Part shown: positions 43,169 through 60,670 of the stretch, piece after piece
Layout of the letters: the number at the start of each line of letters is the position of its first letter
How positions within the stretch are numbered: position 1 is the stretch's first letter
NCBI RefSeq assembly: GCF_016901995.1
Contig: NZ_JACJLE010000001.1
Location: forward strand, 1-64,000
Source: Bacteroides caecigallinarum
GTDB taxonomy: Bacteria; Bacteroidota; Bacteroidia; Bacteroidales; Bacteroidaceae
Length of the DNA stretch: 64,000 nt
Reading direction: 5' to 3'
Translations under genes and position numbers: made by a program
The notes under the pieces: generated by a model
What the model was told of the DNA's origin: nothing
The model's database searches: none
What the model saw: the letters and a program-made list of their open reading frames with translations, nothing else

Positions 43169-43738
43169 TTAATCAGATGCAATTTTGATAGTAATCTTTA
43201 GAAAGTTTGCATCCTCGCTGATAGAAACATTGGGGTCATTGGAATGAATCTCAATAATTTTTATTCCATTACCTCCAAACATCTCTATATCAGGATGTGA
43301 ACAAGTGTAATGAAACAAGCCTTTGAATATATACTTAAAATCTTTAGCCTTTATAGTAAGTGTCGATTCTCCATATCCTTCTTTCCTGTCATCAGAATAA
43401 TTCATCGAAGATTCCATAGGAAGAGGGAAAACAGTCCTTATTATTTTCTCATCTCCTATTTCAACGGTATGAAAAGGTATTTTATAGCCATCCCTTCCAA
43501 TAAAAGACAATCCATTCATAATAGCCTCATTATCTATAAGACTATTACCTTCTGAATCCAATACATCAATCAATACATCATTGAATATAGATGATGCAAC
43601 TGTCGGATAGTCTGGTTCTTCAGATTTACTGCACGAAGACAATAATAATAGTGGAAGAAAGAGACAAACAAATTTAGTTAGGTCGCACTTTGATAGAGAG
43701 ATTAATGAAAGGCAACTGATTCTAGTAAGATTTCTCAT
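43169..43738 (-). CDS. Hypothetical lipoprotein downstream of the sigma-barrel gene
   Basis: A 189-residue protein of no family I recognise. It has an unusually long signal region with a hydrophobic stretch LTKFVCLFLPLLLLSSC ending in lipobox LSSC (Cys about residue 36), so it should be lipidated and exported. The mature part is acidic at first (SKSEEPDYP) and then beta-rich, with strands such as NDVLIDVLDSEGN and FLKITIKIASD. The start at 43738 was chosen because it opens just before the signal; a longer frame starts only at GTG and overlaps the upstream gene. It follows the sigma-barrel gene by 98 bp on the same strand, so it may be a partner or target of that protein. Function unknown. Confidence 0.7.
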   Translation of the reverse strand: MRNLTRISCLSLISLSKCDLTKFVCLFLPLLLLSSCSKSEEPDYPTVASSIFNDVLIDVLDSEGNSLIDNEAIMNGLSFIGRDGYKIPFHTVEIGDEKIIRTVFPLPMESSMNYSDDRKEGYGESTLTIKAKDFKYIFKGLFHYTCSHPDIEMFGGNGIKIIEIHSNDPNVSISEDANFLKITIKIASD

Positions 43739-43836: not shown

Positions 43837-45384
43837 TTACCACGTAAAACGCAAGCCTACAGGAAGCGAGAACTCAAAAGGCTTGTCCTGCCTGATTGTA
43901 GGATAGCTGCTCCTTGACTTAAAATAATAGTTTATAGACGGCTCTGTATAGATACCAATTTTCGGCGTGAAATGATATTCAATCCCTATTCCTCCATATA
44001 CAGACCATTGCATGGGCAATGCGTAATTATGTTCTTGCATTTCACCGTCATCTATTCTTTCATTCACCTTGCCTCTTAGTGGAAACTCCACCATTCCTCC
44101 AATGCCGGAAGAAAGTGAGAATTTGTCAATAGACAAAATCTTAAAACGAAGTTTCAGAGGAACTCCTAAATAATGTGCTTTTATATACTGATTGGTTACA
44201 GAAACGGACTGTTTATCGTTTATGGTTGTTGTGGTTCGTTTTGTCCGCAATAATGTGTATTGCAGCCCGCTTTCTAAATTCCAACATTTAGAGAGGAGTT
44301 TAGAAATATTCAAAGCAAATGTAATTGGCAGATCGTGTTCAGATTCCTCTATAACCTTGTCATTAGAACCTGCCCAAATAGGATTATCACTTGGTTTCAA
44401 ATATGAATTTTCTGTATTAAATGCTCCTATTACAGAACCTCCAACAGACACGCTAAAGTTACGATTTTTTCTTTTTGTTATAGGCAAGTCATTGGAATGA
44501 TGTGCGCAGGCAAAAAATTCCATTTTGTTTGGATTAGAACAAATATCATGCTTAGCTGTATCAGAGTCCTCTCCATTATCTGTTTTTGTTTCAGCAAGAA
44601 GATTTTCTGCTGTAGTGGAGAGGTTAAGGGAATCTTCCTTTTCCACACAGATTTCCGAAAGTAATGCGGTATTCCTACTGCTTTGCAGGGCAATCTGCTT
44701 TATTGATTCTTCATTTTGTACTACCTTGTTCTCTATATCTTTATTTGTTTCTGTTCTTAATTTTGTTGGTTCAAAAATTGTTTGAACTCTATGGTCATTT
44801 TGATTATGCTGGAAAATCATGGAAATTATGATAATGGCCAATATCACCATTCCTTTTTCTATTTTATACTTCACAATTATTTCGCGAAGCATAATCCGTG
44901 CATGGAATAGTTGAGAACCTGATGTCTGAGTTGAAATACCAAGCAGTTTAGCGATTTCTTTATGAGTTTTGTGCTCCAATACTGCAAGTCTGAACACCTT
45001 TTGATAACCCACAGGAAGACGGTTGATCATTATCTCCAATTCTTCCATTGTGATAGATTCCTCAAAGTCTGGAATGTCAGGCGTATCATAGTCTTCTGCG
45101 AGCAGTTGGGTAAAATCCTGTTCTTTAAGATATCGCAAAGACAAATTTTTCATTATCGTCCCCATCCAGTATTCCAGTTTTTCCTCATTCTGAAGTTGAT
45201 TGATACGGCTGAAAATGATAAGGAAACCATCATGTAATATATCTTGTGCAGCATCCAAATCATGTATATAGTGACAGATGACGCGCATCATCCGCCTTGA
45301 AAAGGTTGTATAAAGTAATCCTAATGCTTCTTTATCTCCTTTTTTACACCGTTCTAATAACTCTTTGATATCAATAGTTGCCAT
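43837..45384 (-). CDS. ECF sigma factor fused to inner-membrane helix and outer-membrane beta-barrel
   Basis: One uninterrupted frame of 515 residues combines three parts. Residues 20-90 look like sigma region 2 (LDAAQDILHDGFLIIFSRI), and residues 113-172 like region 4 with its helix-turn-helix (HKEIAKLLGISTQTSGSQLF). A basic segment (VKYKIEKG) then leads into one hydrophobic helix, MVILAIIIISMIFQ (about 179-192), consistent with an N-in inner-membrane anchor. About 115 hydrophilic residues (193-307) could span the periplasm. Residues 308-515 are alternating beta strands of a PorT-like barrel ending in GLRFTW, with the aromatic last residue typical of BamA substrates. No anti-sigma domain is visible. 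The nearest known idea is the Dma dual membrane-spanning anti-sigma factor of Bacteroides; here the sigma factor itself is attached. I chose MATIDIKELL as start; an upstream in-frame extension is hydrophobic and unlike sigma factors. Confidence 0.85.
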   Translation of the reverse strand: MATIDIKELLERCKKGDKEALGLLYTTFSRRMMRVICHYIHDLDAAQDILHDGFLIIFSRINQLQNEEKLEYWMGTIMKNLSLRYLKEQDFTQLLAEDYDTPDIPDFEESITMEELEIMINRLPVGYQKVFRLAVLEHKTHKEIAKLLGISTQTSGSQLFHARIMLREIIVKYKIEKGMVILAIIIISMIFQHNQNDHRVQTIFEPTKLRTETNKDIENKVVQNEESIKQIALQSSRNTALLSEICVEKEDSLNLSTTAENLLAETKTDNGEDSDTAKHDICSNPNKMEFFACAHHSNDLPITKRKNRNFSVSVGGSVIGAFNTENSYLKPSDNPIWAGSNDKVIEESEHDLPITFALNISKLLSKCWNLESGLQYTLLRTKRTTTTINDKQSVSVTNQYIKAHYLGVPLKLRFKILSIDKFSLSSGIGGMVEFPLRGKVNERIDDGEMQEHNYALPMQWSVYGGIGIEYHFTPKIGIYTEPSINYYFKSRSSYPTIRQDKPFEFSLPVGLRFTW

Positions 45385-45565
45385 TACAATAAAGATGAAT
45401 ATTATCGCATTATTTTGCATACAGCAGCACTGCTTTTAACATTTTTTACATGAATCTATCAAGAAGGTTATATGATTGTTTGATGTTTAATTTCATGGAA
45501 GACAAAAATAAAAGGACTATCAACATAGTATGTGAATAACACATTAATAACTCCATACATAAATA

Positions 45566-48370: not shown

Positions 48371-48763
48371 TTACAACAGATTTATGGCAGCCAATTCCTC
48401 AGTCAGTGCGTTAATACCTTTCTGAATCTTCTCCAACTGCTGCTTGCGAGGTTTATGCACTCCGGCCGCATAATGCCACAACTGGCGTTCATTGATGCCG
48501 GTTATCCGACTCAATGCGGCCTTAGTGAAAATACTACTGTAGTAGTTGATAAATGTAGAAGCATCTATTTTAAATTTTAAGGAAAATTCCCCTTTGAGAA
48601 TTTCGCAAGGATTCGGATTGTCCTCCAAATATAAGTCTATAGCTTCTTTCATGTTATCTTCAATCTCCCTTATGTTATTACCAACCGTAATAACAGGAGC
48701 ACCTTCGATATAAGCACTAAGATTGTTGCCGGCATGTTCCACAATAACTTCAACTGTTCTCAT
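48371..48763 (-). CDS. hicB: HicB-family antitoxin
   Basis: Antitoxin of a type II pair; binds and blocks the HicA RNase and represses the operon. The 130-residue protein has an N-terminal partial RNase-H-like fold (TVEVIVEHAGNNLSAYIE, VGNNIREIEDNMKEAI) and a C-terminal helix-turn-helix (LSRITGINERQLWHYAAG). I chose MRTVEV; an in-frame ATG four codons earlier (48775) is also possible. It follows hicA by 39 bp. Confidence 0.85.
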   Translation of the reverse strand: MRTVEVIVEHAGNNLSAYIEGAPVITVGNNIREIEDNMKEAIDLYLEDNPNPCEILKGEFSLKFKIDASTFINYYSSIFTKAALSRITGINERQLWHYAAGVHKPRKQQLEKIQKGINALTEELAAINLL

Positions 48764-48802
48764 TTTGACCACCATTTTATAGTTAAACAAAAGAGGCTGG
48801 GG

Positions 48803-48991
48803 CTATTTTAGCCCCGCTTGCCTCAAAATGCTGTAATAAGTGCCTTTTTCAACGCCTTTCTTTCCATGATTCGGAACGACTACCGTTATTCCGTCTTTTT
48901 CAAACTTCATGTGGCTGCCCTTCTGGCTTTTTAGAACGAAGCCGTTGTCAAGCAACATAGTTACAACCTCCTTAACTGACTTGTAACTCAT
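48803..48991 (-). CDS. hicA: HicA-family mRNA interferase toxin
   Basis: Small ribosome-independent RNase toxin of the double-stranded RNA-binding fold. The 62-residue protein has the family core LLDNGFVLKSQKGSHMKF with catalytic His27, then VVVPNHGKKGVEKGT and a C-terminal ILRQAGL. The toxin gene comes first, as in most hicAB operons. I chose MSYKSVKEV; the upstream frame only adds residues from the promoter region. Confidence 0.9.
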   Translation of the reverse strand: MSYKSVKEVVTMLLDNGFVLKSQKGSHMKFEKDGITVVVPNHGKKGVEKGTYYSILRQAGLK

Positions 48992-60110: not shown

Positions 60111-60266
60111 ATTTATATCAATAGTCATATATTTATAAAATGAAATACGAGCAACACAAAGATAACGATTTATTATAAATGTCAAAATACTATACTAAAG
60201 AAATATAAATGAATGGAATTAGCTTTTTAGGACTAAACTTAATTAAAGAAAGAATATCTTCTAAAG

Positions 60267-60341
60267 TGGGCGTTGACGGATTCGAACCGCCGACCCTCTG
60301 CTTGTAAGGCAGATGCTCTGAACCAGCTGAGCTAAACGCCC
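60267..60341 (-). tRNA. tRNA-Val (anticodon UAC), copy 4 in transcript order
   Basis: 75-nt cloverleaf on the minus strand: acceptor GGGCGTT/AACGCCC, anticodon stem TCTGC/GCAGA with loop CTTACAA (anticodon TAC), T loop TTCGAAT, discriminator A, no encoded CCA. It appears identical to the three copies upstream. Confidence 0.95.
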
Positions 60342-60377
60342 GAAAGGAGAATATTTGATCAAATTATTTCTTTGAAG

Positions 60378-60452
60378 TGGGCGTTGACGGATTCGAACCG
60401 CCGACCCTCTGCTTGTAAGGCAGATGCTCTGAACCAGCTGAGCTAAACGCCC
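60378..60452 (-). tRNA. tRNA-Val (anticodon UAC), copy 3 in transcript order
   Basis: Same 75-nt sequence and fold as its neighbours, separated from copy 4 by 36 bp. The spacers contain related ATTTGATCAAWT sequence (minus/plus), so the array likely arose by tandem duplication. Confidence 0.95.
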
Positions 60453-60487
60453 GAAAGGGGGAAATTTGATCAATTATTATTTAGGAG

Positions 60488-60562
60488 TGGGCGTTGACGG
60501 ATTCGAACCGCCGACCCTCTGCTTGTAAGGCAGATGCTCTGAACCAGCTGAGCTAAACGCCC
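60488..60562 (-). tRNA. tRNA-Val (anticodon UAC), copy 2 in transcript order
   Basis: Same 75-nt sequence and fold; 35 bp separate it from copy 3 and 33 bp from copy 1. Confidence 0.95.
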
Positions 60563-60595
60563 CTAAAACAAATTGAAAAAGAGATTTAATCGGAG

Positions 60596-60670
60596 TGGGC
60601 GTTGACGGATTCGAACCGCCGACCCTCTGCTTGTAAGGCAGATGCTCTGAACCAGCTGAGCTAAACGCCC
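60596..60670 (-). tRNA. tRNA-Val (anticodon UAC), copy 1 in transcript order
   Basis: First tRNA of the four-gene transcript; 28 bp downstream of a strong -7 element. Same sequence and fold as the other three. Confidence 0.95.

Follow-up and report, generated by a model that had tools for sequence, protein, structure and literature searches.

How is an ECF sigma factor kept in check when it forms one polypeptide with a membrane helix and a predicted outer-membrane barrel? The question is raised by a gene at 43837-45384 of the window, that is, the whole 64,000-nucleotide stretch of Bacteroides caecigallinarum DNA analysed here. A preliminary description had reported, without naming the strand, a single 515-codon frame holding sigma regions 2 and 4, a helix, a linker and a C-terminal aromatic residue, and the translation and the Pfam matches bear this out: on the minus strand, 43837-45384 reads through without interruption for 515 codons and ends in a stop. 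The locus has the following features.

43837..45384, minus strand: fused sigma-transmembrane-linker-barrel gene, 515 aa plus stop (from the ORF listing, Pfam and relatives)
44863..45384, minus strand: ECF sigma domain, residues 1-174, with region 2 at 24-90, region 4 at 115-164 and the recognition helix at about 150-167
44812..44853, minus strand: single hydrophobic helix, residues about 178-191, abutting sigma region 4, with basic residues ahead
44464..44811, minus strand: hydrophilic linker of 116 residues (192-307), presumably a tether across the periplasm
43840..44463, minus strand: OMP_b-brl_2 domain, residues 308-515, predicted barrel (Pfam and profile homology) with a C-terminal Trp
43169..43738, minus strand: following gene, same orientation, coding for a predicted lipoprotein of 189 aa (LSSC, by eye) without a Pfam match
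45385..45450, minus strand: upstream region of the fused gene, the site of TGCAGTCTTT in other fused genes, with no match here

The plus-strand frame over 43837-45384 is closed by many stops, and the ORF listing also contains a longer, 527-aa version of the product that starts from an ATG further upstream. Pfam places Sigma70_r2 at residues 24-90 (30.3 bits against a cut-off of 24) and Sigma70_r4_2 at residues 115-164 (45.6 bits against 25.7), and the OMP_b-brl_2 match at residues 308-479 lies only just above its cut-off (28.2 against 27 bits). All three models were matched at E ≤ 0.01 in each of the ten members of the first alignment. TIGR02985, the nearest NCBIfam model for the sigma part (E 1.7e-23), scored 83.7 bits, under its cut-off of 126.4. 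The helix and the tether length of the window protein were judged by hydrophobicity and sequence; in the translation, KYKIEK precedes the hydrophobic stretch at about 178-191, and the last residue is W515. The periplasmic domain of the sigma factor IutY is FecR-type, and no FecR model was present among the Pfam matches of the window protein or of the first-alignment members. The neighbours of the fused gene are the lipoprotein gene and an RNase HII-like gene (by eye), and a search of its own genome revealed no second sigma gene on the same contig.

In the Dma/Das and EcfO-Reo systems, a sigma factor is paired with an anti-sigma protein whose N-terminal binding domain is followed by a helix, then a disordered tether and finally a barrel (PMC13088901, PMC13114119, PMC9308784). 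The beta-rich barrel domain of the preliminary description is supported for the fused protein by Pfam and profile homology but not by structure prediction: the two AlphaFold models, for which three near-identical sequences served as input, had mean pLDDT values of 30.3 and 34.0 and were unusable. A profile search of the PDB with the barrel gave NanC as the best match, which is weak (E 0.07). The barrels of fused and separate proteins match each other profile to profile with an E value of 2.4e-57 (hhalign). As judged by this sequence comparison, the C-terminal domain is homologous to the barrel of separate Dma-like proteins, and the barrel fold itself is a prediction.

The same single frame is kept in two orthologues, G071 (99%) and G042 (93%). 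A long frame arising by chance, or an assembly error, was ruled out by the frame in these two genomes and by relatives that match over the full length at 31-37% identity. In a comparison with the 93% orthologue, the whole protein had a dN/dS of 0.41, the sigma part one of 0.22, the linker one of 0.69 (the highest among the four parts measured) and the barrel one of 0.55, values that are rough because they derive from just 23 synonymous and 37 other changes in all. The homologue search called for in the preliminary description indicated that the fusion is conserved in other species, and also across families. Within the genus, it was found in 10 of 61 genomes, as nine full-length matches and a 581-aa frame in G062. 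Full-length single-frame matches occur in at least 7 of the 393 genomes of the order sample, with the window's own included and G281 having two, and partial or broken copies are present in G119 and G361. The family sample comprised 399 genomes, of which at least 98, spread over 16 of 30 genera, gave a match at E ≤ 1e-55; among the matches listed, most are full length and some are fragments. In genus g18, at least 13 of 149 genomes carry the fusion, those of G119, G518 and G873 being partial or broken. The counts for the order, the family and g18 are minimum values, since scoring was limited to 3, 3 and 10 candidates per genome, respectively, and the genome samples include incomplete genomes. 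The fused proteins were cut to distinct sequences, 39 in a first set and 48 in a held-out set (87 in total); these sets include near copies, so that counts over them do not represent independent events. The viral contigs that were searched yielded three distant sigma factors and nothing else. Three copies of the fused gene, G119:C13 (L077), G591:C18 (L145) and G873:C79 (L142), are broken by an internal stop or a frame change, and they are either decaying genes or assembly errors.

The window's own genome also encodes a separate pair, a sigma factor at C168:8686-9213 (37%) and a 443-aa barrel protein (36%), as compared with the two ends of the fusion. Among the ten fusion-bearing genomes of the genus, both halves of such a pair are listed in nine, and the sigma half alone in G062. 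The first sigma tree required three changes between the fused and separate states. L077 and L078, which had at first been counted among the separate rows, are broken or partial copies in which the sigma piece continues into the helix, and they were relabelled as fused after this tree had been seen. With this relabelling, the fused proteins occupy one side of one branch in the sigma tree (SH-aLRT 100) and in the barrel tree (99), and each tree needs one change; both are quick, unrooted trees with SH-aLRT support only and long-branch warnings. Several origins of the fusion were rejected on this ground, as the three changes drop to one once L077 and L078 are counted as fused. One change per tree fits a single fusion and a single split alike, and the simplest reading would be one fusion with both halves inherited together. 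The recognition helix is mostly HSSSSQL in the fused proteins and mostly HTSSSQ in the separate sigma factors of the genus. A fusion that keeps the anti-sigma segment was also considered and dismissed, because the 619-647-aa frames of G007, G073, G055, G044, G049 and G067 are separate pairs with a single stop between the two genes. This arrangement, in which a lone stop codon divides the separate sigma gene from a Dma-like gene in the same frame, was seen at L021, L056, L057, L058, L059 and L060.

The sigma domain had been proposed to occupy the place of the anti-sigma end of Dma proteins, and comparison of the sequences supports this placement. In the fused proteins, the sigma recognition helix continues nearly directly into the membrane helix: relative to the end of the sigma model, the start of the membrane helix is offset by -1 to +4 residues in all 39 distinct proteins and by -5 to +3 residues in all 48 held-out ones. 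In the separate barrel proteins (n = 52), the helix starts at a median residue of 55 (range 47-91, counted in the stop-to-stop frame), and the segment ahead of it resembles W..LR.RM..YSEPLP..LW in the printed examples. Because the helix comes straight after sigma region 4 in 87/87 fused proteins, these cannot accommodate the segment of about 50 residues with which the separate proteins begin; the N-terminal cytoplasmic anti-sigma segment of the Dma1/Dma2 type is absent from all 87, the window's protein included. The sigma domain must therefore be silenced in another manner. The final residue is Trp in 39/39 fused and 45/48 held-out proteins (the others being two Lys and one Tyr), and the last residue of the separate barrel proteins varies widely. 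A C-terminal aromatic residue is typical of BAM-inserted proteins. The helix and the conserved part of the barrel are 126-243 residues apart in the 39 fused proteins, and a chain of this length could span a periplasm.

Regions upstream of fused genes contain TGCAGTCTTTT about 50 nt ahead of the start. A second box, which is TATCATA in one clade and GGACTATA or others elsewhere, comes after it at a distance like that between promoter elements. The motif, with at most one mismatch, is located upstream of 31 of the 39 fused genes, compared with 0.04 in shuffles and 0 for the reverse complement; the shuffles for this count and for the held-out count below preserved base composition only. Among the eight genes without it, five keep TGCAGT near the same place with an altered tail, and three are the window gene and its orthologues. 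A second copy, TGCAGTCTTT with at most one mismatch, lies no more than 25 nt past the last sense codon and before the next gene at 31/39 loci (hand count), and several fused loci have a third copy of the TGCAGTCTTT motif ahead of a radical SAM gene. The held-out set consisted of 50 loci outside motif discovery, 48 of them single-frame fusions (L142 and L145, which have a stop inside, were omitted). Here, the motif was present upstream in 44 of 47 loci, 42 of them exact (shuffles, 0.19), the denominator being 47 because upstream sequence is missing for L152. A copy no more than 120 nt past the stop was present in 39/48. The upstream exceptions are L176 and L182, which have no motif, and L167, which has two mismatches.

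When whole genomes were searched with a strict two-box pattern, both matches in G017, all 18 matches in 16 fusion-bearing genomes (11 with a match and five without) and all five matches in G001, G052 and G056 were located at the fused locus. The strict patterns were built from fused loci, so that matches there (25/25 in all searches together) are expected, and the informative part is that none lies elsewhere. There were no matches in 16 genomes of the genus without the fusion, and a backward control pattern gave none in each whole-genome search. Sites elsewhere may deviate from the strict two-box pattern. At many separate sigma genes, the position about 50 nt upstream is taken by TGCAGTATTTTTG, a motif that is related to that of the fused genes but distinct from it. 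An inverted TACTGC(A) is often seen further upstream of TGCAGTATTTTTG at these genes, for example at L081, L015 and L056. Together, the two elements may serve as a promoter or operator for the separate Dma/Reo-like systems. Separate sigma genes with this layout go up upon activation of their system, as reported for das2 in a dma2 mutant (PMC13088901) and for a P. vulgatus sigma gene after BcpT treatment (PMC13114119). A recognition sequence of B. fragilis EcfO was published earlier (named in PMC7366714), and the separate-gene motif TGCAGTATTTTTG may therefore be known.

The simplest reading of the two motifs is that each sigma type drives its own promoter. From the association of motif and gene, which is correlational, we infer that the fused sigma factor recognises the TGCAGTCTTT motif. 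The distribution of copies suggests that, in most relatives, the fused gene and the next one or two genes form a private, self-amplifying local circuit. Downstream of the fused gene, a lipoprotein or methyltransferase gene comes next, and one clade has a radical SAM/SPASM gene and then a GFO_IDH_MocA gene. A cassette of a small lipoprotein, radical SAM/SPASM and GFO_IDH_MocA genes was observed at L113, L122, L118 and other loci, and a methyltransferase in another clade. The lipoprotein gene of the window (43169..43738) sits where other fused loci have the promoter-bearing next gene.

The preliminary description had stated that no described system has this layout, which does not hold. Dma3 of B. 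thetaiotaomicron (bt_2778-2779) is described in PMC13088901 (J Bacteriol 2026) as having a sigma domain at its own N-terminus and no adjacent cognate sigma gene, and this paper cites Pardue et al. 2024 for the layout and notes that little is known about Dma3. The architecture is thus already known, and Dma3 was the only fused sigma-barrel protein found in our literature search. Compared by this description, the window protein is like Dma3 in being a Dma-family protein with a sigma factor as its N-terminal domain and no adjacent cognate sigma gene. In the literature on Dma3, as far as the accessible text of PMC13088901 extends, we found no account of its promoter, its distribution or a missing anti-sigma segment. 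Likewise, the literature searched gave no earlier account of how broad the family of fused proteins is, of the anti-sigma segment being uniformly absent, of the grouping in the trees or of the set of local promoters, and Pardue et al. 2024 may contain part of this.

The Dma1/Das1, Dma2/Das2 and EcfO-Reo systems have a helix, tether and barrel in the same order as the fusion (PMC13088901, PMC13114119, PMC9308784), but each consists of two proteins, and their barrel protein has the N-terminal cytoplasmic segment that is absent in the fusion. The separate pairs found here, which are likened to Dma/Das and EcfO-Reo by their layout, show homology to the fusion at each of its two ends and have the related promoter-like motif ahead of their sigma gene. 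IutY of Pseudomonas putida (ECF243) also combines an ECF sigma domain and a membrane-anchored periplasmic part in one chain; unlike the fusion, its periplasmic domain is an anti-sigma domain, its outer-membrane receptor is a separate protein, its chain has no barrel, and it belongs to another phylum (PMC8999054, PMC5411451). ECF48, ECF52 and ECF53 are similarly sigma factors with C-terminal membrane-spanning extensions, but they have a zinc-finger domain, come from Actinobacteria and lack an outer-membrane barrel (PMC8999054). ECF sigma factors with regulatory membrane extensions are thus a recognised class (PMC8999054).

On balance, we favour the interpretation that the fusion is a Dma3-type one-piece signalling protein whose sigma domain is released by proteolysis and which has a private promoter in most relatives. 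The N-terminus would stay in the cytoplasm, the helix would be a signal anchor, and the barrel would reside in the outer membrane. In the off state, the sigma domain would be fixed to the inner membrane at its recognition-helix end, instead of being held by an anti-sigma domain. A disturbance of the barrel or of the outer membrane would expose the linker, at which a periplasmic protease could make a first cut, and a membrane protease of the RseP kind could then cut at the helix and free the sigma domain. The freed domain would transcribe its own gene and the small adjacent cassette, resulting in self-amplification. An RseP-family gene is present in the window's own genome. Membrane anchoring as the off state, the cut in the linker and an RseP-type release are proposed by analogy with IutY, the closest precedent that has been tested, which is cut by Prc and RseP to release its sigma domain (PMC8999054, PMC5411451). 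According to PMC5411451, the activity of truncated IutY forms with the helix is wholly RseP-dependent, and the sigma domain without the helix is not processed by RseP and is still active, although less so in an rseP mutant. The helix-bearing forms were undetected in the rseP mutant (PMC5411451), so that loss of the protein is a second reading of the RseP dependence. For the Dma proteins, neither a protease nor a signal is reported in the accessible literature.

Regulators of the ToxR/CadC type act while they are held in the membrane, and an uncut fusion might do the same, with a signal passing through the linker and helix and RNA polymerase being recruited at the membrane. No requirement for a protease is known, and all strict promoter matches are confined to a single locus, a target within reach of a factor that stays in the membrane. 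We consider this mode of action unlikely, however, given that there is almost no spacer between the recognition helix and the membrane helix in 87/87 proteins, which would leave little freedom to bind polymerase and DNA, and that the helix-bearing IutY forms depend on RseP (PMC5411451). It is less likely still that a separate Dma/Reo-like protein of the same cell restrains the sigma domain in trans through its anti-sigma segment, the fusion then being a localising device. The co-occurrence of the separate pair in the fusion-bearing genomes of the genus (both halves in 9/10) would allow this, and dma3 is induced in dma1 and dma2 mutants, with possible crosstalk being mentioned (PMC13088901); however, a direct interaction does not follow from the induction of the dma3 locus. 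In addition, the fused sigma domains stand apart from the separate ones in the tree, and the two groups mostly differ in the recognition helix (HSSSSQL versus HTSSSQ) and in the upstream motif (TGCAGTCTTT versus TGCAGTATTTTTG).

The private promoter of the favoured interpretation applies to most relatives, and the window's own gene is an exception. Neither upstream nor downstream of this gene and its two orthologues (3/3) is there a TGCAGTCTTT motif, and the strict two-box pattern has no match in the whole G000 genome. A GCAGT at about -50 of the window gene is not kept by the two orthologues. The window contains one exact TGCAGTCTTT and nine copies with one mismatch, none of them at the fused gene, and 10 of 100 shuffles gave as many, which amounts to no clear excess above chance. 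A search for a substitute motif common to the upstream and downstream regions of the window gene and its orthologues gave nothing better than shuffles. The recognition helix of the window protein and its orthologues is TQTSGSQLFHAR, and that of the other fused proteins is mostly HSSSSQL.RAK. The missing motif, the altered helix and the barrel dN/dS of 0.55 could all indicate a switch that is decaying in this lineage, its promoter lost and its protein drifting. We find this improbable, because the open frame is kept in three genomes together with the start, the stop and the C-terminal Trp, and because the sigma part has a dN/dS of 0.22. A joint change of the helix and of promoter specificity is an equally good fit, but it would be one evolutionary event; such a co-change is attractive and rests on one lineage. 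Our favoured interpretation can be extended to a sigma factor without any anti-sigma, in which surface sensor, trans-envelope cable and transcription factor are one chain that is off by anchoring only and is cut free to close a local circuit, which arose once, and whose promoter specificity shifted together with the recognition helix in the window lineage. We give this extended form an even chance.

If the proposed mechanism is true, the path from the cell surface to transcription would be very short, comprising one polypeptide and its cutting, and an ECF sigma factor would be controllable by membrane tethering alone. The fusion lends itself well to testing the idea of one-protein signalling, given its wide spread, its missing inhibitor piece and the promoter motif that relatives carry around the fused locus. 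Because the private promoter provides a ready reporter, the question can be settled in B. thetaiotaomicron. Moreover, the natural fused and separate systems, each with its own promoter motif, constitute a data set on the change of sigma specificity.

Two other features were observed in the window, both on the minus strand. At 48371-48990, there is a small gene pair that, by eye, resembles a HicB antitoxin and a HicA-like partner, and 60266-60670 contains four tandem tRNA-Val genes with the same anticodon.
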